From contig JAJYJM010000012.1 of NCBI GenBank assembly GCA_021789495.1, positions 8,262 to 53,651 on the forward strand: 45,390 bases of DNA. Direction: 5' to 3'. Made by a program: the position numbers and the translations under genes. Of this stretch, positions 15,717 through 28,375 are shown in pieces (position 1 is the stretch's first letter; each line of letters starts with the position of its first letter). The notes beneath the pieces are model-generated. The model was given only the letters and a program-made list of their open reading frames with translations. It was not told where the DNA came from and did no database searches. The DNA is from Nitrospirota bacterium. GTDB lineage: Bacteria > Nitrospirota > JACRHJ01.

Positions 15717-16139
15717 TTACTTAAATTTCATGTCCTTCAAAACCACCTTCTCCGTCTTCCCTATAATCCTTTCCCGCGCATGTTCAATTATGCAGTTCTC
15801 GATATTACCTCCCCCGCCCTGGGCGAACTCAATTCCCCGCCAGTATCCCTTGTTATCCTTCGGGATGAATTGTATCGGCCTGTCCTTCGTCCCGACGGCG
15901 ACGAGCTTCCCGCTTACGACGATGCCATTGCTTGCCGACGGCTCGAACCGCACAATCGTCCCCGGCTCTATCGTCAGCTTCACGTCCTTCGGCACCGTCA
16001 GGGTCTTCACGATGAGGATGTCGCCGGATAAGTCCATGTCAACCGGCACCTCGCCCCAGAAACGGTTCATCGGGCTGTGCGCGAGCGCGGGGACGGAGAA
16101 ACATAAAATCAGCAGAAGCGCCGGGATAAACTTTTTCAT
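15717..16139 (-). CDS. short exported beta-helix protein
   Basis: A 140-residue secreted protein. A signal peptide MKKFIPALLLILCFSVPALA (cleavage after ALA, ~20) is followed by a few rungs of right-handed parallel beta-helix: DILIVKTLTVPKDVKLTIEPGTIVRF, then GKLVAVGTKDRPIQFIP and YWRGIEFAQGGGGNIENCIIEHA. Full beta-helix proteins are several hundred residues, so this is a minimal or truncated version. The ATG overlaps the permease stop as ATGA. A much longer frame through the permease gene is an artefact. Role unknown; envelope location and coupling to the permease suggest a joint function. Confidence 0.8.
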   Translation of the reverse strand: MKKFIPALLLILCFSVPALAHSPMNRFWGEVPVDMDLSGDILIVKTLTVPKDVKLTIEPGTIVRFEPSASNGIVVSGKLVAVGTKDRPIQFIPKDNKGYWRGIEFAQGGGGNIENCIIEHARERIIGKTEKVVLKDMKFK

Positions 16140-17086
16140 CTCGTAACCAGCCAGATATACTGCCAGAGATAGCCCAAGGCAATCGAGCCGATGAGCCCCA
16201 CGGAGACGTACAGGACGAATATCCTCTTCTTCATCATGCCGAGCATCGCGGCCATCGCGGGTATGGACGTGACCGGCCCGGCAATCATAAACGCGACAGC
16301 AGGCCCGAAGCCGATATGCCCGGTGTCCATCATGCCCTTGACAATCGGCACGGCGGAGAGGCCGTTTATCGGGAACGGTATGCCGATGAGCGCGGCATAG
16401 ACGACGGAGAATCTGCTCCTGCCCGCCAGCGCGTAGATCCAGTTCGCCGGGACGAACGCCTCGATTATCCCCTGGATGAAGAGCGCGATGAGCAGGAACT
16501 TCCCGACTATGAGGAGCGTGTCTTTCGCGCGGGCGAAAAAGAACGGGACTTTCCTGTCGGAAAGGACGGTGTCGATAGGGACTGTTTTGGGGGCGGCAGA
16601 GTCGATTTTCGCGTCGCAATAGCCCCTGCGGGGAGCGCCGTTCCAGGGGTTTTCGCCGTCGATAAGTCCAGCCTCCGTAAGCCATTTCGCAGCGAATCCG
16701 GCGAATAGCCCCATAAAAATCGCGCCGGTTATCTTTGCGATAGTCAGAGGCAGGCCGAGGGCGGAGTAACTGACCATTATCGATGCCGGGTCTACGATAG
16801 GGGCGGAAATCAGGAGGGCCATGGCAGGGCCGAGCGGTGAGCCCGCCTCAAGCAGAGTCACGGCGATAGGGAGAATGCCGCAGGAACACAAAGGAGAAAA
16901 AACCCCGGCGGCGGCGGCGAGGAATATCACCCAGCCGCCGCCCCGGTTCAGGATTACCCAGAGTCTTCTGTCAAGCTTCCAGGTCTTGATAAGCGCGGAA
17001 ACGGCTACCCCGGCAAGGGCATACGGTCCCATCCTCAAAAGACCGTCCCATACGACCCCAAGGACTTCGAGGATGGCGCTGTTCAT
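16136..17086 (-). CDS. DUF318/ArsP-type permease
   Basis: A 316-residue integral membrane protein with about eight predicted segments in two halves separated by a charged cytoplasmic loop (~140-185). The family signature is clear: GVFSPLCSCGILPIAVTLLEAGSPLGPAMALLISAPIVDPASI in the first half, with the CSCG Cys pair, and the symmetrical GIPFPINGLSAVPIVKGMMDTGHIGFGPAVAFMIAGPVTSIPAM in the second. Related proteins (PF03773) include the organoarsenical exporter ArsP, but no ars gene is present. The gene follows the DUF1573 gene by 24 nt and overlaps the beta-helix gene by 4 nt. A GGAAG-like ribosome site is weak. Confidence 0.88.
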   Translation of the reverse strand: MNSAILEVLGVVWDGLLRMGPYALAGVAVSALIKTWKLDRRLWVILNRGGGWVIFLAAAAGVFSPLCSCGILPIAVTLLEAGSPLGPAMALLISAPIVDPASIMVSYSALGLPLTIAKITGAIFMGLFAGFAAKWLTEAGLIDGENPWNGAPRRGYCDAKIDSAAPKTVPIDTVLSDRKVPFFFARAKDTLLIVGKFLLIALFIQGIIEAFVPANWIYALAGRSRFSVVYAALIGIPFPINGLSAVPIVKGMMDTGHIGFGPAVAFMIAGPVTSIPAMAAMLGMMKKRIFVLYVSVGLIGSIALGYLWQYIWLVTR

Positions 17087-17110: not shown

Positions 17111-17863
17111 CTACTGTACCATCCCCTGCACGATGAAGTCCCTTACGGGGTTTCTCGTGGAGTTAGACCGGATAATCAGCACCTCCTGGTAATTGCCCTT
17201 CTTAACCTTCGGACTTATAGTAACGTCCATTTTTTCGGACTGGCCGGGCTTGAGCTTCATGGAGGTATTTACCGTCTTGCCCTCCGCCACATTCACGCCG
17301 CCGATTCTGGCCGTGATGCCCTGGGAGGCGGTTATCTGGTTGATTGTCAGGTCGAGCTGGCCCGGATTGGAAACCGAGATGGTCCTTTTGGTGCTGCCGC
17401 CGGAAGGGATCTGGACGTTGGCGAGCATGTATATGGAAAGGGCAATATCCGGGGCCGGCTTGGTTTTTACGTTCGCGGAGAGGGTAAGGGTGAGGACGCC
17501 GTTGCCGGTCTTGACGTCGTTTGTCGAGACGGTTATGAACTTGCGGATTTCGCCGCTTGCGTTCATGGAATTGTAAATGGCGACAAGCGTGGCGGTTTTG
17601 CCGGGAGCTAATGTTTTTGTGCTCAAGTTCGCTATGGTGCAGCCGCAGGTGGGCCTGACGTCGTAAATGACAAGCGTCGCGTCGCCATCGTTCTTTATGG
17701 TGAAAGTCGCCTTGGACTTGACGCCCTCGTCGATAGTCCCGAAGTCGAAGTTCATTGGGGTTATCACCACCTTCGGTTGGGCAGCCCTGGCGAAGGGAGC
17801 GACGTAAATAGATAGACATAAGAACAAGGCCGTGGCCGCACAGATCAATGCCGGTTTTTTCAC
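17111..17863 (-). CDS. exported DUF1573 protein
   Basis: A 250-residue secreted protein with a GTG start at 17863, chosen because AGGAGG lies eight nt upstream and a signal peptide (KKPALICAATALFLCLSIYVAPFARA) begins immediately. Two Ig-like ASH/HYDIN-type domains follow. The first (~32-130) is a classic DUF1573 unit: FDFGTIDEGVKSKATFTIKNDGDATLVIYDVRPTCGCT, with the conserved CGC. The second (~150-250) repeats the fold (RTISVSNPGQLDLTINQI...GNYQEVLIIRSNS) without the Cys pair. The role is unknown, probably periplasmic scaffolding. It heads the tight minus-strand run that continues to rlmD and diverges from the TPR gene. Confidence 0.88.
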   Translation of the reverse strand: MKKPALICAATALFLCLSIYVAPFARAAQPKVVITPMNFDFGTIDEGVKSKATFTIKNDGDATLVIYDVRPTCGCTIANLSTKTLAPGKTATLVAIYNSMNASGEIRKFITVSTNDVKTGNGVLTLTLSANVKTKPAPDIALSIYMLANVQIPSGGSTKRTISVSNPGQLDLTINQITASQGITARIGGVNVAEGKTVNTSMKLKPGQSEKMDVTISPKVKKGNYQEVLIIRSNSTRNPVRDFIVQGMVQ

Positions 17864-17957
17864 GCTGACAACCTCCTGTTTATTATGTATTGAAATTGGC
17901 ACCCGGATTAAGTTATCACAACCGTGGCTATTATGCAAGAGCCGCGCCACATCGTCG

Positions 17958-19619: not shown

Positions 19620-20891
19620 CTACCCCAGCTTGCCGAGGAGAGTTCTGACCTTGTTCTTGTAGCGGTCGTCTACCGGCATTTTTATGTAATTTCTGAGCGC
19701 TTCCTTTACCTTTACGTCCTGGGGCGAGGCCGAAATATTCCACGCCCGGATGACCGAACGGACGACATAGAGATCATTCCAGTTGATATACGGGAGCAGT
19801 ATGTTGGCGTTGAACTTCATGCCGATGTCGGCGAGCGCGCCTGCCACTGCGTCCACAACGTCGTCCGATTGTTTTCCTTTGTTTTCAAGCAGTTCCTGCA
19901 ATGGCACGAGCGCTTGGGCCGCCTTGAGCGCGCCGAGCCGCCTGGCCGCCGCCGCCGCGACGGAGGTGTCTTTGTCCTTAAGCGCGGCAATAAGCGGAGC
20001 TGTGGCCTGCCCGTTTTCGTTGCACCTGAAGACGGCCTCTGCGGAAAGCGCCCGCACCTGAGGGTCCGGGTCGTTCAGGAGGATTTTTGTAAGGATTGGG
20101 AAGCATTTTACATCTCTTAACTTTGTAGCCAGCTGGACGGAATTCCTGCGCACCTGGGCGTCCGGGTCCTTCAGGAGCGCCGGGATCTCTTTTACGGAGA
20201 AATTGGGGGCAAAGGCCAGAAAATATGCCGATGCGTCCCGGCGGATTTTCACGTTTTTATCGCCAAGCAGCCCTTCCATGTCTGCCCTGGCTGACGGGTC
20301 GAGCCAGGAAAGCTCCACATCCGCCGCCGCCCGCCTCACGTAAGTTTGTTTATCTTTAAGGTAGTTCTTAAGTTTTTCCCGGTATTCGGGGGCCTTTACG
20401 GATGCAAGAACCTCCGCCGCCGGCTGGCAGCGGGACGGGTCCTCGATGGCCGCAAAAAGGTATGGGACGGAATGGCTTCCGAGAGAGAAAAGCGCGTTCT
20501 TTACGGATTCAAGTGATTTTTTGTCTTTTAAATTCAGGAGGTTGGCAAGCGGCTTGGCCGAGCGTTCGTCCTTTATTCCGTTAAGGACATACACCAGTTG
20601 CGGTATATATTCCCGTTTGTCGAGCGCATGGAGGAGGTCCGGCACCGCCCGTCCGCCCATGTTTATGAGCGCAAACTGGGCCTGGGCCCTCGTCTCAGGC
20701 GAGCCTTTCTCGGCCAAGTTTATCAAGCTGCTGTAGTCGTTTTCCTTTGCCGGACGGGCGACAGATACCGGCGCTCCGGCTTCAAGTGCGGCGGAAGCGC
20801 CTGCGGAACCGGCGGGCCTGTTCGCCAGCGCATGGACGGGCGAGGGGATTAATAACGGGGCAAAAAGGAGGGCGGCGGCAAGGGCTTTCAT
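19620..20891 (-). CDS. exported HEAT-repeat protein
   Basis: A 423-residue secreted protein. The signal peptide is MKALAAALLFAPLLIPSPVHALA. An Ala-rich segment follows, then tandem HEAT/PBS-lyase-type helical repeats fill ~55-400, for example PETRAQAQFALINMGGRAVPDLLHAL, LLKDPDAQVRRNSVQLATKLRDVKCFPILTKIL, LNDPDPQVRALSAEAVFRC and LKDKDTSVAAAAARRLGALKAAQALVPLQELL. Such repeats bind proteins or assemble complexes; no enzyme motif is present. Two ATGs are adjacent; the second (20891) has GGAGG at a workable four nt, the first is too close. It is convergent with the TPR gene and lies just downstream of the peptide unit's terminator. Partner unknown. Confidence 0.88.
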   Translation of the reverse strand: MKALAAALLFAPLLIPSPVHALANRPAGSAGASAALEAGAPVSVARPAKENDYSSLINLAEKGSPETRAQAQFALINMGGRAVPDLLHALDKREYIPQLVYVLNGIKDERSAKPLANLLNLKDKKSLESVKNALFSLGSHSVPYLFAAIEDPSRCQPAAEVLASVKAPEYREKLKNYLKDKQTYVRRAAADVELSWLDPSARADMEGLLGDKNVKIRRDASAYFLAFAPNFSVKEIPALLKDPDAQVRRNSVQLATKLRDVKCFPILTKILLNDPDPQVRALSAEAVFRCNENGQATAPLIAALKDKDTSVAAAAARRLGALKAAQALVPLQELLENKGKQSDDVVDAVAGALADIGMKFNANILLPYINWNDLYVVRSVIRAWNISASPQDVKVKEALRNYIKMPVDDRYKNKVRTLLGKLG

Positions 20892-20937
20892 CATTCCTCC
20901 GGATTGAAAGTGCTTGATACTGTTCGGTTATGCGGAT

Positions 20938-20979
20938 TAAAAAAGCAAGGCGCGTCCCGGTATAAGGAGCGCGCCTTGC
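20938..20979 (-). terminator. intrinsic terminator of the 20-codon peptide unit
   Basis: On the minus strand GCAAGGCGCG pairs perfectly over 10 bp with CGCGCCTTGC (arms 20970-20979 and 20945-20954). The inner part can extend the stem with mismatches. TTTTTTA follows at once. It ends the transcript that starts at the sigma-54 promoter and separates it from the HEAT-repeat gene. Confidence 0.9.
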
Positions 20980-20987
20980 GGAGAACT

Positions 20988-21011
20988 GGAAGCTGGCCTT
21001 TTCGAGCCTCC
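20988..21011 (-). other. 3'-UTR hairpin in the peptide transcript
   Basis: Between the peptide stop and the terminator the RNA can form GGAGGCU / AGCUUCC, seven pairs with one G-U, around a 10-nt loop CGAAAAGGCC. With the terminator this gives two stacked hairpins in a predicted ~165-nt transcript, so a regulatory RNA role alongside the ORF is possible. Confidence 0.45.
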
Positions 21012-21015
21012 CGCT

Positions 21016-21078
21016 TTAGCAGGGATGCACGCTGGAGCTCCCGACAACCTGGGGTTTGGAATATTTTATCTTCCTCAC
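21016..21078 (-). CDS. 20-residue Cys-ended peptide under sigma-54 control
   Basis: A minus-strand mini-ORF from GTG at 21078 to TAA at 21016-21018. The product is 20 residues: a basic start (M/V-RKIK), then YSKPQVVG, then SSSVHPC with Cys as the last residue. Support: a purine-rich ribosome site (GGGGGTGA six nt before GTG, with AAGGAG slightly upstream), a perfect sigma-54 promoter ~26 nt upstream of the ORF at the predicted start site, and an intrinsic terminator after it. The YxxPxxxG pattern resembles leader motifs bound by RRE/PqqD-like domains in some RiPPs, with GSSSVHPC as a possible core; this is inference and no maturase gene is in the window. No hydrophobic segment is present, so it is not a signal peptide. 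It follows the NtrC-type regulator gene, its likely activator. I know of no assigned function. Confidence 0.65.
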   Translation of the reverse strand: MRKIKYSKPQVVGSSSVHPC

Positions 21079-21114
21079 CTGTTCACCCCCTTTCTCCTTA
21101 TGAGCAAAATATAA

Positions 21115-21130
21115 AGCAAACTGCGTGCCA
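21115..21130 (-). promoter_or_regulatory. consensus sigma-54 promoter
   Basis: On the minus strand TGGCAC-GCAGT-TTGCT, an exact match to the -24/-12 consensus TGGCAC-N5-TTGCW. The predicted start is near 21104. The 70 nt upstream to the regulator stop are AT-rich; no clear activator dyad was found there, only a short CCG(N4)CGG element at ~21166-21175. The gene just upstream encodes a sigma-54 activator. Confidence 0.85.
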
Positions 21131-21201
21131 GAAGAAGACAGAAAGGCAACCGTTTTTATTTTATCTCCGTATCCGGAAAAAGGCAAGGACGATATTAAAA
21201 C

Positions 21202-22572
21202 TTAGAGCAGGCCGAATTTTTTCATGCGCCTGCGAAATGCGTCTCTCTGCACGCCCAGGAGGTCTGCGGCCTTGCTCTGGTTGCCGCCCGCCACGGTAAG
21301 AGCCTGTTTTACAAGCTCTTCCTCTACTTTTTCAAGGGACATCCCTTCCTTGGGGATACATATCGAAGAAGCAGCCGGGGATGCGGGCGCCATTCCCCCC
21401 ACGAGTTCCACGGGCAGGTGTTCGAGAAGGAGAATATCCTCGCTCTCCAGTATCATTGCGCGCTCTATGACATTTTTCAGTTCCCGGATGTTGCCGGGCC
21501 AGTCGTACCTGATAAGGAATTCCCTGGCTTTTTCCGAGATTTCACGGACGTTTTTGCGGAACTCCGAGTTGAACAACTCTATGAAATGTCTTGTAAGCGG
21601 AAGAATGTCCTCCTTGCGTTCCCTTAAGGGCGGCAGGTATATGGGCACGACCTGGAGGCGGTAGTACAGGTCTTTCCTGAACCTGTTCTCCATCATCAGC
21701 TTCTTTATGTCCTGGTTCGTGGCAGATATGACCCGGACGTCCACCTGTATGTCCTTTACGCCTCCGACGCGCTTGAATATCTTGTCTTCCAGAATGCGAA
21801 GGAGCTTGGCCTGCATGGAGTAAGGCATGTCGCCTATCTCGTCTAAGAATACCGAGCCTCCGTCCGCAAGCTCCAGGAGTCCTTTTTTCTGCAATTTGGC
21901 GTCCGTAAAGGCGCCTTTTTCGTGCCCCAGCAGTTCGGATTCAAGGAGGTTTTCGGGGAGCGAGGCGCAGTTTATTGCCATGAAGGGCCTGTCCGCGCGC
22001 GAACTGTTTGCATGGACGGCTCTGGCCACCACTTCCTTTCCGGTCCCGGACTCACCCTGGATAAGAACAGTGCTGGCATCGGACTGGGCTATTTTCTGAA
22101 TCATTTCGAGGACGTTTAAGATTGCGCGGCTTTTCCCGATTATATTGCAGGAGCGGACGGCGGTTTTCTGCTGCTCTTTTAAGAGCCTTACCTCTTCGCG
22201 GAGCGAGACTGTCTCCAAGGCCTTCTTTATGGTAAGGGTAATCTCATCGAGGTTGAACGGCTTGCTGATATAGTCGTACGCGCCGAGCTTCATAGCCTTT
22301 ACCGCCGTTTCAAGCAGCCCATGCGCGGTTATCATTATGATGATAATGTCTTTGTCTATTTCCTTTATCCTGCCCAGCGCCTCGATTCCCTGTATGCCGG
22401 GGAGCTGATTGTCGAGCAGGACCAGATCCGGCGACAGGTCAGCCGTCATCTGAAGCGCCTTCTCCCCGTCCTCCGCGGTATATACGTCGTAACCTTCCTT
22501 GCCTAAGTGCTGCTCCAGGGTCCATCTGATTAAGTGCTCGTCGTCCACTACCAGTATCTTGGCTTTTTCCAT
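21202..22572 (-). CDS. NtrC-family sigma-54-dependent response regulator
   Basis: A 456-residue regulator with three domains. The receiver (~4-118) has acidic residues D10/D11, phospho-acceptor D54 in LVLLDNQLPG and SKPF lysine. The AAA+ domain (~145-380) has Walker A GESGTGKE (173-180), GGSVFLDEIGDM as Walker B region and the arginine-finger region RFRKDLYYRL. The Fis-type helix-turn-helix is at the C-terminus (GGNQSKAADLLGVQRDAFRRRM). The sigma-54 contact loop reads GAFTDA (220-225) instead of GAFTGA, a natural variant in part of the family. The gene lies 18 nt after the kinase gene and 72 nt before a consensus sigma-54 promoter, its most obvious target. It may also act elsewhere, for example on pilin or cytochrome genes. 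Confidence 0.95.
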   Translation of the reverse strand: MEKAKILVVDDEHLIRWTLEQHLGKEGYDVYTAEDGEKALQMTADLSPDLVLLDNQLPGIQGIEALGRIKEIDKDIIIIMITAHGLLETAVKAMKLGAYDYISKPFNLDEITLTIKKALETVSLREEVRLLKEQQKTAVRSCNIIGKSRAILNVLEMIQKIAQSDASTVLIQGESGTGKEVVARAVHANSSRADRPFMAINCASLPENLLESELLGHEKGAFTDAKLQKKGLLELADGGSVFLDEIGDMPYSMQAKLLRILEDKIFKRVGGVKDIQVDVRVISATNQDIKKLMMENRFRKDLYYRLQVVPIYLPPLRERKEDILPLTRHFIELFNSEFRKNVREISEKAREFLIRYDWPGNIRELKNVIERAMILESEDILLLEHLPVELVGGMAPASPAASSICIPKEGMSLEKVEEELVKQALTVAGGNQSKAADLLGVQRDAFRRRMKKFGLL

Positions 22573-22590: not shown

Positions 22591-24135
22591 TTATGCAGCC
22601 GTCTCCGGCATCCTGTCTTTCGCCGCAGGCAGATAAATCGTGAAGACCGTCCCTTTGCCGGGCGTGGAATCCACGGTAATGTTCCCTCCGTGCTGCTCGA
22701 TTATCTTCTGGGTAATGGACAGGCCAAGGCCTGTTCCCTGCTGCCGTGTTGTAAAGAAGGGGTTGAATATCTTTTCCATGTTCTCGGGCAATATGCCCTT
22801 TCCGGTATCGGATATGGCTATGGAGACCGTTTCCGAATCCTGCTCGCGGAGGTCTTCGCCGGTTTCCAGCGCCGTCTTTTGCGCCGCCGCGCCGGAATCC
22901 GGTTTTACGGAGGTCGTTATCAGCATTTCGCCGCCTTCCGGCATGGCCTGGACGCCGTTAAGAATTATGTTAAGGAATACCTGCTGGAGTAGTTCCGGGT
23001 CTCCTGAAACGTCGGGGATGTCCGGTAAAAGTTCCCTGCGCACGCGTACCCTGTTCTTCGAGAACTGCGGCGAGAGGAAGGCTATTATCTTTTCCAGGAG
23101 ATCGTTTATATTCAATTCGGCGAGGTTCGGCGCCGGCGGCCTGGCAAAGGAAAGCAGGTTTTTTACGGCCTTGTCCAGCCGGTCTATCTGCTCCAGGACT
23201 TCCTTTATTATCTTATGTCTGGAGTCCTCCGGCGGGAAGTCCCTGCCCAGGATCTGTATCACTCCCGCTATACCCGTGAGGGGATTTTTTATCTCGTGGG
23301 CAATCCCCGCAGCCATCTCGCCCACGGTAGCAAGCCTGTCCGCCCTCCTCATCTGCTCGTAGTGCAGCTTCTCGACCTTTCTCTTTGTCTTGTTGAGTTT
23401 TATGATCATGGAATTGAAGCTGTGAGCAAGCCTGCCGAGCTCGTCCTCGGATACGACCTTCGCCCGGACGTCGAGACCCTCCTCGGCCTTGGACATGGTA
23501 TTAGTAAGGTCTATTATCGGGGTCGTGACAATCCTGGACAGGAGCGCGGAGAGCGCAAACGCAAGGAGCACGGTTATGGAGGCGGCCCAGATTACCATAG
23601 TCTTCTTGAGCTTTGCCACGTGTCTTTCCATCTCGTCAAGCGAGACGTCCACCTCCAACACGCCGTTTATTCTCTGGTTTGCGTCGTGGCATCGGAAGCA
23701 CTCCGGGCGGTTCAGTATGGGGCGGAGGTTCCGGAGTATTATGTCCCCCCGGTCATTTTTGTCCTGGATAATGATGTTCGATTGATCTTCTATCTGCATG
23801 GAGGAGAAGTCGAGGTTCGCGCGCATGCCTATCTCGGATTCCCGCGCAGACCGGAGCACGAATCCGTCCGCGTCGAGAACCCTGATTGCGTATATCTTGT
23901 TATGCGTTCCCACCATCTCCACTATCCTCTGCACGTCCTGGCTTCTGCCTTCGAGCATGGCGGTCTCCAGGGAGCGCTCGATGGTATTGGCAAGGATGGT
24001 GAGCTTATCCTCCGTAAGTTTCCGAAGCTCCATTATCTGGAGATCTACGATTATCCATGTGCCAAGACCTATGGCCAGGATGAGAATGGCGACGGTAAAG
24101 AAGATTATTTTAGTTCTTAAACTCTTGAAAAACAT
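22591..24135 (-). CDS. sensor histidine kinase with periplasmic heme-c motif
   Basis: A 514-residue membrane kinase. The first TM is ~10-30. A periplasmic domain (~31-178) contains CFRCH at 146-150, a CxxCH heme-attachment motif in a region facing the cytochrome c maturation machinery. The second TM is ~179-200, then HAMP (~201-255) and HisKA with H280 in GEMAAGIAHEIKNPLTGI. The HATPase_c domain has N box NIILNGVQAM, G1 SDTGKGI and G2 GTGLGLSI. A short insertion (~405-437, DSGAAAQKT...) splits the ATPase domain. It is probably a redox, NO/CO or oxygen sensor, by analogy with heme-c sensor proteins. Partner: the regulator 18 nt downstream. The prepilin genes are just upstream in the same direction (63-nt gap). 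Confidence 0.93.
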   Translation of the reverse strand: MFFKSLRTKIIFFTVAILILAIGLGTWIIVDLQIMELRKLTEDKLTILANTIERSLETAMLEGRSQDVQRIVEMVGTHNKIYAIRVLDADGFVLRSARESEIGMRANLDFSSMQIEDQSNIIIQDKNDRGDIILRNLRPILNRPECFRCHDANQRINGVLEVDVSLDEMERHVAKLKKTMVIWAASITVLLAFALSALLSRIVTTPIIDLTNTMSKAEEGLDVRAKVVSEDELGRLAHSFNSMIIKLNKTKRKVEKLHYEQMRRADRLATVGEMAAGIAHEIKNPLTGIAGVIQILGRDFPPEDSRHKIIKEVLEQIDRLDKAVKNLLSFARPPAPNLAELNINDLLEKIIAFLSPQFSKNRVRVRRELLPDIPDVSGDPELLQQVFLNIILNGVQAMPEGGEMLITTSVKPDSGAAAQKTALETGEDLREQDSETVSIAISDTGKGILPENMEKIFNPFFTTRQQGTGLGLSITQKIIEQHGGNITVDSTPGKGTVFTIYLPAAKDRMPETAA

Positions 24136-24198: not shown

Positions 24199-24864
24199 CT
24201 ATTGTAAAACACTTTGCCCTCCGCCGAAAGGAGTCTGCGTTCCGGTGGGGCCTTGTCCGGTGGGAACCTGTCCAGGAAGTGGCGTTGTTGTTCCCCCTGG
24301 GATCAGAGGTGTCGCCGCTCCCCCGGGGGTTATCTGGGTCTGGATGGTCGTTGTATTCGGGTTGTAATCGAACATCCACTCGGAGTATTTGGTTTTGCCC
24401 GTGAAGCTCATATCGTCCAGATCAAAATTGCTCGTCTTCAACGGCCTCTCGTCGCTTATGCTGTGCACGCCGCCGATGGCCTGGCCGGCCACGACCGTGC
24501 CGCCCTCGATAGTGTTGGGGGCGATGCCTGGCGGCGGAGGCGGCGGATCAAGCGCCCAGTCGGCCTTTCCGGTCATAGGGTCTTTATACAACTTTCTTAA
24601 GTCCCTCACAGGGTTAAGGTATGCGGGGTCTTCCAGGAGGTCTTGCAGGGATGTCGGATACTTGCCCTTGTGCCTTGGGTCGTTGTAATACCGCTTGATA
24701 GCCAGGCGGAACTGGTTCCCGCGCCAGAGCAGTTCTTTTTCTTTTTCTTCCCTGGTAAAAAGCTTCCATGAGCGTCCAAGCTCCGCCGAGGTTATGCCGA
24801 TAATCAGGATGATTATCAGCATGCCCATATAGGTGAAACCGGCGTTATTTTTACCAGTCCGCAT
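24199..24864 (-). CDS. type II/IV minor prepilin lacking Glu5
   Basis: A 221-residue pseudopilin. The leader MRTGKNNAG precedes the cleavage site G|FTYMGMLIIILIIGITSAEL, so the mature protein has Gly at position 5 where the conserved Glu is expected. That is typical of GspK-like or tip-type minor pilins. The next segment, EEKEKELLWRGNQFRLAIKRYYNDP then KYPTSLQDLLEDP and MTGKADW, is a GspG-like motif set. It has PPPPPP in the middle and a Thr/Pro/Gly-rich, probably disordered C-terminal third (ITPGGAATPLIPGGTTTPLPG). The ATG overlaps the end of the preceding prepilin gene by 14 nt. It is the last structural gene before the kinase. Confidence 0.88.
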   Translation of the reverse strand: MRTGKNNAGFTYMGMLIIILIIGITSAELGRSWKLFTREEKEKELLWRGNQFRLAIKRYYNDPRHKGKYPTSLQDLLEDPAYLNPVRDLRKLYKDPMTGKADWALDPPPPPPGIAPNTIEGGTVVAGQAIGGVHSISDERPLKTSNFDLDDMSFTGKTKYSEWMFDYNPNTTTIQTQITPGGAATPLIPGGTTTPLPGQVPTGQGPTGTQTPFGGGQSVLQ

Positions 24865-25288
24865 AGCTCACACCGTTCGTTCCTATCTTGTCGCTTCCGC
24901 TGTGGACGTCGTAGATGCCGCCGGAGTCGCCGCCCGAGGAGTCTGACGAATCAGAGGAGTCGGAGGAACCTGAATCCGAGTTGTCGCCCGTGTAGTATTC
25001 AAGACGCCAGGTGGTTTTAGATCCCGTCATGGGGTCCGGCGGAATCGAGCGCATGTAGCCTTTGGCCACGAGGTCGTCCAGCGTGTCCGGGTATTTGCCG
25101 TTGTCCGCGTAATACTGGTCAAGGACATTCCGGAGGTTAAAAAGGTCTTCTTTCAGCGTGGCTTCCTTGGCTTTGAGGACCGCCGTCTTGAACATCGGCT
25201 GGGCAAGTGTCGCCAGTATGCCGATTATGGCTATAACCACCATCAGTTCCAGGAGCGTAAAGCCTTTTTTCCCTTTTAAAACCTTCAT
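24851..25288 (-). CDS. GspG-type major pseudopilin-like prepilin
   Basis: A 145-residue prepilin with leader MKVLKGKKG and cleavage G|FTLLELMVVIAIIGILATLA (Glu5 present). The GspG pattern LKEDLFNLRNVLDQYYADNGKYPDTLDDLVAKGYMRSIPPDPMTG follows. A Ser/Asp-rich stretch (~105-127, repeated SDSSDS) replaces part of the usual calcium-binding loop and may bind calcium. ATG at 25288 is chosen because AAAGGTG precedes it; an ATG at 25321 would overlap the upstream prepilin gene by 14 nt in the same way as the next gene pair does. Likely role: the pseudopilus shaft of the secretion apparatus. Confidence 0.9.
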   Translation of the reverse strand: MKVLKGKKGFTLLELMVVIAIIGILATLAQPMFKTAVLKAKEATLKEDLFNLRNVLDQYYADNGKYPDTLDDLVAKGYMRSIPPDPMTGSKTTWRLEYYTGDNSDSGSSDSSDSSDSSGGDSGGIYDVHSGSDKIGTNGVSYADW

Positions 25289-25307
25289 GTTCACCTTTCC
25301 CCGCGCC

Positions 25308-25862
25308 TTACCAGTCCGCATATTTCGTTCCGTCCAGCGCGGTGCCGGTGGAGAACGAATAGACGTCGAACACGTCTTGTCCGCCCCATACGGTGCTGGC
25401 CGGGTCGTCCGCGTTGCTCCTTAAGCCCCATTTCGCTTTCCCGGTCATCGGGTCTACGGGGATTTTACGGAGGAGTCTTATCGCCTTCGGGAACTGCTGC
25501 ATCGGCGTTCCCCCCGCGAGCGCCGTCGCAAGCGCCCCAGGCGGGGTTTGGAGCGGTATCAGCCTGGTCAGAGTCTCCAGGGTGGGAGGATACCCCGTAG
25601 GGGCGTTATCGGTTACGCTGGTCTGTGTGCCGGCGGTCTGCGCGATCCTGCCGTCGTCGTAGAGCTTCTTGTATTCGTCGATGGCGTCGCGCATCTCCCG
25701 TAAGTCGGCTCGAAGCTCCGCTTCCTTTTCGCGTTTGACGGTCATGCGTTCGACCGGCATCACTATGGCCGCCAGGATGGATATCACCACCATAACGACC
25801 ACGAGCTCGGTCAGGGTAATGCCGCGCCTGTCAAAGTAGTTTGTTACTGCCGGTATTTTCAT
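25308..25862 (-). CDS. prepilin-type protein
   Basis: A 184-residue prepilin with a longer leader (MKIPAVTNYFDRRG) and cleavage G|ITLTELVVVMVVISILAAIV. Position 1 is Ile rather than Phe and Glu5 is present. The soluble part keeps EAELRADLREMRDAIDEYKKLYDDGRI, YPPTLETLTRLIP and IPVDPMTGKAKWGLRS, with a Thr/Ala/Pro-rich insertion between. It ends in KYADW, nearly the same as the next prepilin (SYADW), suggesting tandem duplication. It lies 23 nt after the secretin gene. Confidence 0.88.
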   Translation of the reverse strand: MKIPAVTNYFDRRGITLTELVVVMVVISILAAIVMPVERMTVKREKEAELRADLREMRDAIDEYKKLYDDGRIAQTAGTQTSVTDNAPTGYPPTLETLTRLIPLQTPPGALATALAGGTPMQQFPKAIRLLRKIPVDPMTGKAKWGLRSNADDPASTVWGGQDVFDVYSFSTGTALDGTKYADW

Positions 25863-25885
25863 AACTCACTGCCGCCTTCTGCCTG

Positions 25886-28375
25886 CTACCTTACATACAG
25901 CGTGCCCGTTTTGAGGTCCGCCGGGACCGTAGCGCCGTGCACGTCCTTCAGGTCGTTCTGTTTGAACACCAGCGGGCTGATGCCCGGTGCTATGCCCTTG
26001 AAGGTCAGGGAGAAGAGGGTCCCGGAACCCGCGATTCCGGGAATCCTGCCGAGCCGGGTGAGCATGACCTTTATCAGCCCTATCTTCTCGTTGGCGCTGG
26101 CCATGAACGATGTCGGCTGCTTGTCCACGTTCATATAGTTGCCCTCGGTCGCCTTTACGAACTTGACGAGCTTCGGGTTGTAGATTATCGAAAGCGGCGC
26201 CTCGAACGTGGAGTCCAGGTTCGTCGCCTTGATGTCTATGGTTATCTCCTGACCCACTCCGACAGGCGTAACCTCCGGTGCGAACGAGAGCGTTCCCACG
26301 CGGCCTATTTTTTGGAAACTGGGGACGGATTGCGGCGGAGTCTCAACGGGTTTCTCCGCCTGCGTTGTTTTTGCCCCTGGTTTTACGGGCGCGCCGGGCT
26401 TGGCAGGCGTCTGCGGCTTTGCGGGCGCGCCGGGCTTGGCAGGTTTGGACTCAGGCGCGGCGGCGGGGCCTTGCGGGGCCGCGGGCGTCGGGGCCTGGGA
26501 CACTTCCTCCTGTGGGGCGGCCTCCGTCTCCGGGATGGAGAGATTCGTCTTCTTCTCCTCGAAGAGGGGCTTCGTGTCGTATGCCTGCTCCGTCCCGGAC
26601 CAGAACGACGTATCCCGCTCGCTGGGGAGTTCAAGCGGCCTGATTATGTGCGGCGTGAGCGTCATTACCAGTTCGCGCTTGCTGTTCGGGCCGACAGTGT
26701 TGGACGAGAACAGCTTGCCGAGGATGGGAACGTCCATCAGCCCGGCGACGCCGCTGTCCGTGAGCGCCGTTGAGTTGTCCATAAGGCCGCCGATGATGAC
26801 TGTCTCGCCGTCCCTCAGGCTCAGCGTCGTGCTGGCCGTGGTGGTGTTGAAGGTCGGTTCGCTCTGGCCGCCCACGGTAATGCTGCCGCCCAGGGAGCTT
26901 ACCTCCAGCGTGACCTTCATCTTCACGTCTCCGCCGATGCCGATGTTCGGTACGACGGTGAGCGTTATGCCCACGTCCCTGTATTCGAACGTGGAGGTAG
27001 TTATCGCGCCGGCGACGGCTGTGCCCGTCTGGACGGGTATGCGGCTGCCTATGAGTATCTTCGCGGGCTGGTTGTTGAGCGCCCTTATCTGCGGGTTGGT
27101 TAAGGTCTCGGCGTGAGATTTTGTCTCGGAAAAATTGGCCGTTACGCTCGGATATGAGAAAAAGATGTTGTTTTTAGCCTTCCCCTGTTTCTGCGTAAAG
27201 GCGCCGAGACTGGTAACAATACTTGTTGGAATAGCGGTCAGGTTGCCCCCGATTGAACTTGAACCGCCGAATACTACGTTTCCGGGAGGTATGTATGTCC
27301 CCGTAACCGACGTGGGCCAGGAGATTCCGTAGGTCGTCGTGTTCGGCCCCTTGTCCACGGACATGACGTCGCAGTCTATGATGACCTCGGAGTCCTGCCG
27401 GTCGTTCGCATCGATGAGCTTCTCCGCGAGCTTGAGCTTGTCCGGAGTCTCCCGGAGCGTGATGGAGTTCAGGGTATCGTTTATTATTATCCTCCTCGTC
27501 TCAAGCATCGTGCGCAGGATGTTCACCATATTCTTCGCCTGGATGTGGGAGAGGTAGAAGGTCTTTATCTTGAGGTCCTGGTACTGGTCTTCCTTCGCCT
27601 TCGTCTTGGGAATTATTATGATGGCGTCCGCCGCAATCTTCTTCATAAAGAGCTTGTTCGTGGCAAGGAGCAGGTTCAGCGCCTCCTTGAAAGAGACGTC
27701 CTTTGCAAAGACGGTAACGGGCTGGTTCTTCACGTCCTCGTCGAAGAGAATGCTTATGCCGGAAATCTTCGAGAGGAACTCGAAGACCTCCTTGAGTTTC
27801 GCGTCCTTGAAGGAAAGAGTTATAGGCTCCTTTGACGCAAGAGAAAGCTCGTCCTCTTCGTTCTCCTGCACCTTTCGCTTCGTTATCTCCTCCACGTATT
27901 TCTTGGCGGTCTTGTTTTTCGGGTCGATGTCGAGCGCCCTGTAGAATTCGTTTAAAGCCTCGTTGGGCCTGCCCGCGGCGAGATAGCTCCTGCCGTCGGT
28001 TATATACTCCTGTATTTTTTTAAGCTTCCGGGCCATCTCCATAAGCTGGCGCGCCTTGGCGCTGCCGGGGTCGTAGATATTCGCCTGCTGCGCCTCGAAG
28101 ATGGCGGCGTCGGGATTTTTCTGTTTGAGATAATACGCGGCCCTGTCCATGTGCCGGATGGCGGCCTCCTGCTGGACCCTTGCAAGCCTGGTCATGTAGG
28201 TTATGTTGTCCGGGTCGTGCTGGAGCGCATCCCTGTAGAACGCTACCGCCCGGTCAAAGTCCCCTTCCACGTCGTATTGTTCCCCTTTTTTGAAAGCGAC
28301 GTCTCCGGCGCAGCCCGCGGCAAGGACCACGCATAGAAGGATGAGCGCCATGAAAAGCCTGGTGAACCTGTGCAT
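25886..28375 (-). CDS. gspD: TPR-secretin-cohesin outer-membrane lipoprotein
   Basis: An 829-residue outer-membrane pore subunit with an unusual domain order. A lipoprotein signal has lipobox LAAGC (C22). Tetratricopeptide repeats follow (~25-165, FDRAVAFYRDALQHDPDNITYMTRL...). Next are secretin N-domains (~185-345, ITLSFKDAKLKEVFEFLSKISGISILFDEDV; LNSITLRETPDKLKLAEKLI). The secretin core (~350-600) includes GTAVAGAITTSTFEYRDVGITLTVVPNI and GETVIIGGLMDNS...VPILGKLF, ending KRELVMTLTPHIIRP. A Pro/Ala/Lys-rich linker leads to a C-terminal cohesin-like domain (~705-829). The TPR part may replace a separate pilotin. Shine-Dalgarno AAGGGGGA is close to ATG 28375. It forms the exit channel for the pseudopilus operon. 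Confidence 0.92.
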   Translation of the reverse strand: MHRFTRLFMALILLCVVLAAGCAGDVAFKKGEQYDVEGDFDRAVAFYRDALQHDPDNITYMTRLARVQQEAAIRHMDRAAYYLKQKNPDAAIFEAQQANIYDPGSAKARQLMEMARKLKKIQEYITDGRSYLAAGRPNEALNEFYRALDIDPKNKTAKKYVEEITKRKVQENEEDELSLASKEPITLSFKDAKLKEVFEFLSKISGISILFDEDVKNQPVTVFAKDVSFKEALNLLLATNKLFMKKIAADAIIIIPKTKAKEDQYQDLKIKTFYLSHIQAKNMVNILRTMLETRRIIINDTLNSITLRETPDKLKLAEKLIDANDRQDSEVIIDCDVMSVDKGPNTTTYGISWPTSVTGTYIPPGNVVFGGSSSIGGNLTAIPTSIVTSLGAFTQKQGKAKNNIFFSYPSVTANFSETKSHAETLTNPQIRALNNQPAKILIGSRIPVQTGTAVAGAITTSTFEYRDVGITLTVVPNIGIGGDVKMKVTLEVSSLGGSITVGGQSEPTFNTTTASTTLSLRDGETVIIGGLMDNSTALTDSGVAGLMDVPILGKLFSSNTVGPNSKRELVMTLTPHIIRPLELPSERDTSFWSGTEQAYDTKPLFEEKKTNLSIPETEAAPQEEVSQAPTPAAPQGPAAAPESKPAKPGAPAKPQTPAKPGAPVKPGAKTTQAEKPVETPPQSVPSFQKIGRVGTLSFAPEVTPVGVGQEITIDIKATNLDSTFEAPLSIIYNPKLVKFVKATEGNYMNVDKQPTSFMASANEKIGLIKVMLTRLGRIPGIAGSGTLFSLTFKGIAPGISPLVFKQNDLKDVHGATVPADLKTGTLYVR

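Follow-up and report, generated by a model that had tools for sequence, protein, structure and literature searches.

The unit at positions 20938–21130 of a 45,390-nt stretch of a Nitrospirota contig, hereafter the window, raises the question of whether an open reading frame (ORF) of 20 codons with its own promoter and terminator is a gene and, if so, what its peptide is for. The unit is read on the minus strand of the window and comprises a sigma-54 site, a ribosome-binding site, the ORF and a terminator. A preliminary description had listed an exact TGGCAC-N5-TTGCT element, a ribosome site and a GTG-started 20-codon ORF, all of which were confirmed on that strand. The ORF, VRKIKYSKPQVVGSSSVHPC, spans 21016–21078, with its GTG start at 21078 and a TAA stop at 21018–21016. 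Column conservation divides it into a putative leader of 13 codons, MRKIKYSKPQVVG (21040–21078, minus strand), and a putative core, SSSVHPC (21019–21039, minus strand).

In terms of conservation, the 20-codon ORF is a genuine coding gene. The peptide is identical in all four congeners, and a comparison of synonymous with non-synonymous change, which had been proposed beforehand, shows that every difference between the ORFs within the genus (five genomes) is a synonymous change at a third position. Homologues were found by profile search in other Nitrospirota families, and 109 places were confirmed when 85,000 species genomes were scanned, mainly in Nitrospirota, Desulfuromonadales and further groups once placed in Deltaproteobacteria; one MAG record each bears the label Actinomycetota or Phycisphaerae. 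Homologues ending exactly in HPC number about 100 distinct sequences; the preliminary description had suggested a search for short ORFs ending in SSxVHPC. Their leaders follow the pattern MKK-x(0-2)-[YF]xxPxVVG, of which the Tyr/Phe, Pro and Gly are nearly invariant among 100 distinct 3′ ends, and HPC is invariant and always C-terminal (100/100). In the same set of 3′ ends, third-position entropy reaches 1.8–1.9 bits at the V, V, G and V codons, and the stop codon is TGA in 55, TAA in 37 and TAG in 8 of the homologues. With HPC invariant and C-terminal, but third positions unconstrained and the stop codon variable, sequence comparison indicates that selection acts at the protein level on the exact C-terminus. 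The frame and its C-terminal Cys, whose loss had been named as evidence against such a gene, are both kept among the relatives that keep the promoter.

The same genome (G000) encodes a paralogue, MKIKYTAPKVVASSSVHPC, which has its own ribosome-binding site and, on contig C8, follows the 3′ end of a gene for a multihaem cytochrome; a further example of a VHPC precursor is MKKYMKPRVVGSSNVHPC. Selenocysteine insertion at a TGA stop was considered and ruled out, as the stops vary among TGA, TAA and TAG. Scans of the peptides against Pfam and NCBIfam gave no match at E values up to 10. A search of phage sequences returned none, and a search of plasmids returned one match at chance level (52.6% identity, E = 9).

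A rival explanation holds that the ORF is an attenuation leader peptide or part of a small regulatory RNA, the peptide itself having no role. The arrangement of a short ORF, a terminator and then the gene for a secreted HEAT-repeat protein (19620–20894, minus strand) does resemble the layout of an attenuator, and the transcript can fold. However, it is the amino acids that are conserved across many families while the codons are free, down to an exact C-terminal Cys, and most homologues sit behind maturase or cytochrome genes. The small-RNA alternative of the preliminary description fares poorly for the same reasons, the third positions being free, the stop varying and covariation being absent, and so does its additional 3′ hairpin when taken as a conserved RNA element, since the alignment gives an unfavourable term for covariation (+2.6 kcal/mol) and has the terminator alone in common. 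The window gave no match to Rfam at the gathering threshold. We regard a purely regulatory role as highly improbable.

The sigma-54 −24/−12 promoter TGGCACGCAGTTTGC (21116–21130, minus strand) is kept in G000–G005, and its pattern, TGGCAYN5TTGCT (16 bases), occurs once in the window, as compared with 0.02 occurrences expected. The site lies 52–56 nt upstream of the start codon in all five genomes of the genus. In G005, a genome of the same family, GGGCAC-N5-TTGC is located 53 nt from the start, in the equivalent place downstream of the same regulator gene; judged from these alignments, conservation of the site in the genus and in G005 is beyond chance. Initiation some 12 nt past the −12 GC (21116) would give an untranslated leader of ~26 nt. 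The purine-rich ribosome-binding region, AAGGAGAAAGGGGGTGA, is at 21083–21099 (minus strand), and the equivalent place in G001 reads AAAGGAGGTGA. A sigma-70-like promoter, TTGCCT-N17-TAAAAT (21158–21186, minus strand; 9/12 matches), lies further upstream than the sigma-54 site, and all five congeners keep TTGYCT-N17-TARAAT 105–110 nt upstream of the start codon. Given this conserved second site, which the preliminary description had overlooked, the unit probably has tandem promoters. The 10-bp intrinsic terminator was also correctly described: it lies at 20939–20979 (minus strand) and consists of a stem, GCAAGGCGCG/CGCGCCTTGC (20979–20945), followed by TTTTTT. Stem and T-run are kept in the congeners and are altered yet retained in G005.

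The candidate activator is an NtrC-family sigma-54-dependent response regulator (21202–22572, minus strand), whose orthologue occupies the same place in the congeners and in G005. As the preliminary description had it, this gene lies upstream in the same direction, with 71 nt between its end and the −24 element; the unit thus combines a −24/−12 element at a near-fixed distance with an adjacent gene for a bEBP-type activator, as expected of a sigma-54 regulon. The next gene, 22591–24135 (minus strand), encodes its partner, a sensor histidine kinase that has a periplasmic sensor domain (PF21563) and one CxxCH motif (CFRCH). The orthologues in L022, L024 and L029 retain the motif, and the kinase is a candidate haem-c redox sensor. 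Sigma-54 control as a trait of the whole peptide family was considered and rejected, as sites outside the window's family were near chance level in the first sample. The exception is G263, a genome of another family in which similar sigma-54 sites precede some of the peptides, five of them having sigma-54-like sites. From these sequences, sigma-54 control is a local trait of two Nitrospirota families. Upstream of the peptides of L031, L032 and L039 is a different conserved motif, GTAACATATCG...CGGGTATT, possibly another type of promoter; these peptides have Phe in place of Tyr (MK[KR]IRFA...).

The genomic context of the homologues points to an enzyme system. GeoRSP is represented in NCBIfam by three models, for a PqqD chaperone (TIGR04302, cut-off 100 bits), a radical SAM/SPASM protein (TIGR04303, 400 bits) and a SPASM protein (TIGR04304, 300 bits). 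In many Desulfuromonadales, the peptide is encoded between the radical SAM protein and the second SPASM protein, and the proteins beside it score 445–468 bits with TIGR04303 and 100.3 bits with TIGR04302; they also include TIGR04304-like proteins, at 291.9 bits in L175 and weakly, at 94 bits, in L077 (cut-off 300). Among 296 Nitrospirota genomes, TIGR04303 is above its cut-off in 16, all of which (16/16) have the peptide; in a Desulfuromonadales-type order, 49 of 136 genomes have the maturase and all 49 have the peptide. With these two unrelated sets pooled, the peptide is present in 65/65 maturase-positive genomes. Fisher tests of co-occurrence gave p = 9e-24 and 6e-29, phylogeny being ignored. 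The peptide lies 30–209 nt (median 74.5) downstream of the maturase on the same strand in 42 of the 49 genomes of the Desulfuromonadales-type order, and 18 of 89 plus-strand peptides examined are directly behind a maturase gene. Conversely, the maturase was found at E < 1e-80 in 40 of 48 genomes chosen for the peptide alone; about 15% of peptide-bearing genomes are without a detected maturase, perhaps owing to incomplete MAGs.

The window's own genome encodes the maturase (TIGR04303, 461 bits; cut-off 400) on contig C34, and the chaperone gene (TIGR04302, 103 bits; cut-off 100; L125:9414–9728) overlaps its start. TIGR04304 was not found in this genome, in which the SPASM part of other radical SAM proteins was the sole match, and no peptide gene is located near the maturase on C34. 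For this reason, the two peptides of the genome would be served in trans, and the link between peptide and maturase is drawn there by family. The surrounding island (L125 and L178; C34, about 18–55 kb) has its own kinase/NtrC-type regulator pair and encodes several NosD-like beta-helix proteins, three CarboxypepD_reg-like and two FG-GAP-like proteins, a NapH/NapG-like ferredoxin, a HEAT protein and a NicO-type transporter.

The precursor can be named a GeoRSP precursor on the strength of the adjacency in 42/49 genomes, the 65/65 co-occurrence and the presence of maturase and PqqD protein in the window's own genome. These results also bear out the earlier guess of a precursor of a ribosomally synthesized and post-translationally modified peptide (RiPP) with a YxxPxxxG leader and an SSSVHPC core, and the ORF has the form expected of one, a conserved short coding ORF with a leader and a core, assigned from conservation. 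An alternative is that VHPC peptides and GeoRSP merely share horizontally moving islands, the true GeoRSP substrate being something else. The distribution is indeed patchy, the maturase-positive Nitrospirota falling in at least seven families, several of which have negative members, and the islands carry many accessory genes. Against this, the peptide lies 30–209 nt behind the maturase in those 42 genomes, and even the scattered copies that are distant from it occur almost exclusively where a maturase is present in the genome; the length and layout of the peptide also fit a PqqA/MftA-like precursor. Coincidental sharing of islands is therefore considered quite improbable, and the VHPC peptide is very likely, judged from genomic context, the precursor and substrate of the GeoRSP radical SAM/SPASM–PqqD system.

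The architecture of this system is reminiscent of several characterized ones. In pyrroloquinoline quinone (PQQ) biosynthesis, a PqqD-type chaperone and a PqqE-like SPASM enzyme act on a peptide of ~20 residues. GeoRSP shares the PqqD-type chaperone, the SPASM enzyme and a peptide of similar length, but the VHPC core lacks a Glu/Tyr pair, no PqqB, PqqC or PqqF was seen beside the GeoRSP radical SAM protein, and the latter scores 119–144 bits with the PqqE model (cut-off 381). In the selenobiotic, geopeptide, SCIFF, ACGX and other families, SPASM-type maturases act on short Cys-containing peptides; the VHPC peptide differs in matching no NCBIfam precursor model, and its maturase belongs to TIGR04303. 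The core of the mycofactocin precursor (MftA) is unlike a C-terminal VHPC, and the GeoRSP radical SAM proteins score 173–194 bits with the MftC model (TIGR03962, cut-off 265), that of the window's own genome at 172.9 bits. Mycofactocin nevertheless offers a close parallel in its very short precursor missed by gene callers, its SPASM maturase and its small peptide-binding partner, and its dependent redox proteins were identified through co-occurrence (PMC3023750). All of these elements (short precursor, radical SAM/SPASM maturase, small peptide-binding protein and co-occurring redox proteins) recur here, whereas GeoRSP differs in having several dispersed precursor copies and in that the associated proteins are secreted cytochromes rather than nicotinoproteins. 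By analogy, the VHPC system would work like mycofactocin and PQQ while being a member of neither. A part in the chemistry was also weighed for selenium or sulfur genes (YedE-type, cysteine desulfurase) and set aside; they occur beside Desulfuromonadales cassettes inconstantly and were not seen in L125.

Which proteins might use the product is suggested by the remaining neighbours. Of the 89 plus-strand peptides examined, 27 are encoded directly behind a multihaem cytochrome gene. The commonest cytochrome type beside the peptides is large and secreted and ends in CH-x(n)-WNxxTPW, a tail in which the residues C, H, W, N, T and the last W are invariant in 15 aligned sequences and in which the Cys-His is without the first Cys of a CxxCH motif (for example L082:5515–9930, L096:1877–4339, L048:1074–9776 and G000:C8:546–656). 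The tail was found in 14 genomes of the 296-genome Nitrospirota set and in 37 genomes of the Desulfuromonadales-type order, all peptide-positive (51/51 credible genomes in two sets); one further Nitrospirota match was spurious, a 35-residue frame with an internal stop. The presence of the peptide thus tracks giant multihaem cytochromes of metal- and sulfur-respiring bacteria. A search of the PDB with the C-terminus of a tail-bearing cytochrome gave no match. In some genomes tail-bearing cytochromes outnumber the peptides, G350 and G380 having a single peptide gene, beside the maturase; a product acting in trans therefore fits best.

Other peptide neighbours are secreted FG-GAP, CarboxypepD_reg, NHL, HEAT or Ig-like proteins, and the window copy does not adjoin a cytochrome gene. 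Since several contexts have FG-GAP, HEAT, CarboxypepD_reg or NHL proteins instead, a role confined to cytochromes is too narrow. We give an even chance to the proposal, drawn from these gene neighbourhoods, that tail-bearing cytochromes, or else other secreted proteins, depend on the modified product. In G263 (L166–L171), about 15 VHPC peptides are encoded, in many cases alternating with genes for secreted CarboxypepD_reg or NHL proteins, and these partner proteins often end in a conserved [DN]CP motif. The protein directly upstream of the peptide in L028 (7163–9952) has Ig-like domains and, unusually for its build, a biotin/lipoyl-like domain (PF00364) at the C-terminus, and the proteins upstream of the peptides in L026 and L040 cluster with it.

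The roughly one-to-one ratio of precursors to secreted partners in G263 raises the alternative that the peptide is covalently installed on these proteins as a tag, anchor or cross-link, for instance via the lone Cys-His of the tail, whose Cys is invariant and which is confined to peptide-positive genomes. This reading appears unlikely, as a single peptide gene beside the maturase serves genomes with several tail-bearing cytochromes (G350, G380), other partner proteins are without the tail, and the leaderless 20-mer would need a route out of the cell. Slightly less unlikely, yet still a minority view, is a metal ligand or chaperone, with VHPC holding Cu, Zn, Ni or Fe in the periplasm through its His and Cys residues. 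An ArsP_1/SO_0444-type permease is encoded near the window peptide (16136–17086, minus strand), with relatives directly behind the peptide in L032 and inside the GeoRSP cluster L175; a NicO-type transporter is present in L125 and L174, and NosD-type beta-helix proteins occur in many GeoRSP loci. In the window, a secreted beta-helix protein (15717–16139, minus strand) is encoded 5 kb from the peptide, adjoining the permease gene, and its family occurs in this genome only in the GeoRSP island on C34 and in the window. GeoRSP clusters further share ResB-like and substrate-binding proteins. Against metal binding, the type of transporter is inconstant (ArsP_1, NicO or, in others, YedE-type), the substrates of the permeases are putative, and the likeness of the beta-helix proteins to NosD is at the level of fold.

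The explanation that we favour as a whole, and with good confidence, is headed by the ORF as a ribosomally made GeoRSP precursor peptide. The PqqD-type protein would recognize the leader, and the maturase would modify the short C-terminal core in trans from C34, most likely within the invariant VHPC. A small product would then be released; its users would be secreted proteins outside the cytoplasm, above all the large multihaem cytochromes with the CH-x(n)-WNxxTPW tail, for which it may serve as a cofactor or maturation factor. The window copy would represent, in this genus, a separate monocistronic supply unit in which the sigma-70-like promoter gives basal transcription and the sigma-54 promoter adds precursor supply under the control of the neighbouring haem-c-type sensor kinase and NtrC-type regulator. 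Only tentatively do we extend this to the proposal that GeoRSP makes a previously undescribed cofactor or covalent appendage from the C-terminal VHPC of 18–20-residue precursors on which the tail-bearing giant secreted cytochromes depend for maturation or extracellular electron transfer; that the product is specifically a small redox cofactor, as opposed to a tag, anchor or metal ligand, seems possible but rather doubtful.

The GeoRSP enzymes are named in public annotation and have no described substrate in the open-access literature, in which searches found no relevant paper naming GeoRSP or TIGR04303 (subscription papers and bioRxiv being outside the search) and none on SVHPC; wider RiPP and cytochrome topics gave general papers only. 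The VHPC family supplies a candidate with strong genomic support, a whole family of 18–20-codon genes that escaped family models, and with it GeoRSP chemistry becomes directly testable by co-expression. The C-terminal tail is predicted to mark multihaem cytochromes dependent on the modified peptide. If so, a new peptide-derived component would take part in the extracellular electron transfer of Desulfuromonadales and Nitrospirota, and its supply in the window's genus would be under sigma-54 control that is probably redox-responsive.

Two further features of the window were observed. A DUF1573-like protein encoded at 17111–17950 (minus strand) resembles the OS_HP2 (seleno)protein family (74.5 bits; cut-off 100). 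An operon at 24199–28375 (minus strand), which precedes the kinase/regulator pair, encodes pilin-like proteins with an N-terminal methylation motif together with a secretin-type protein.
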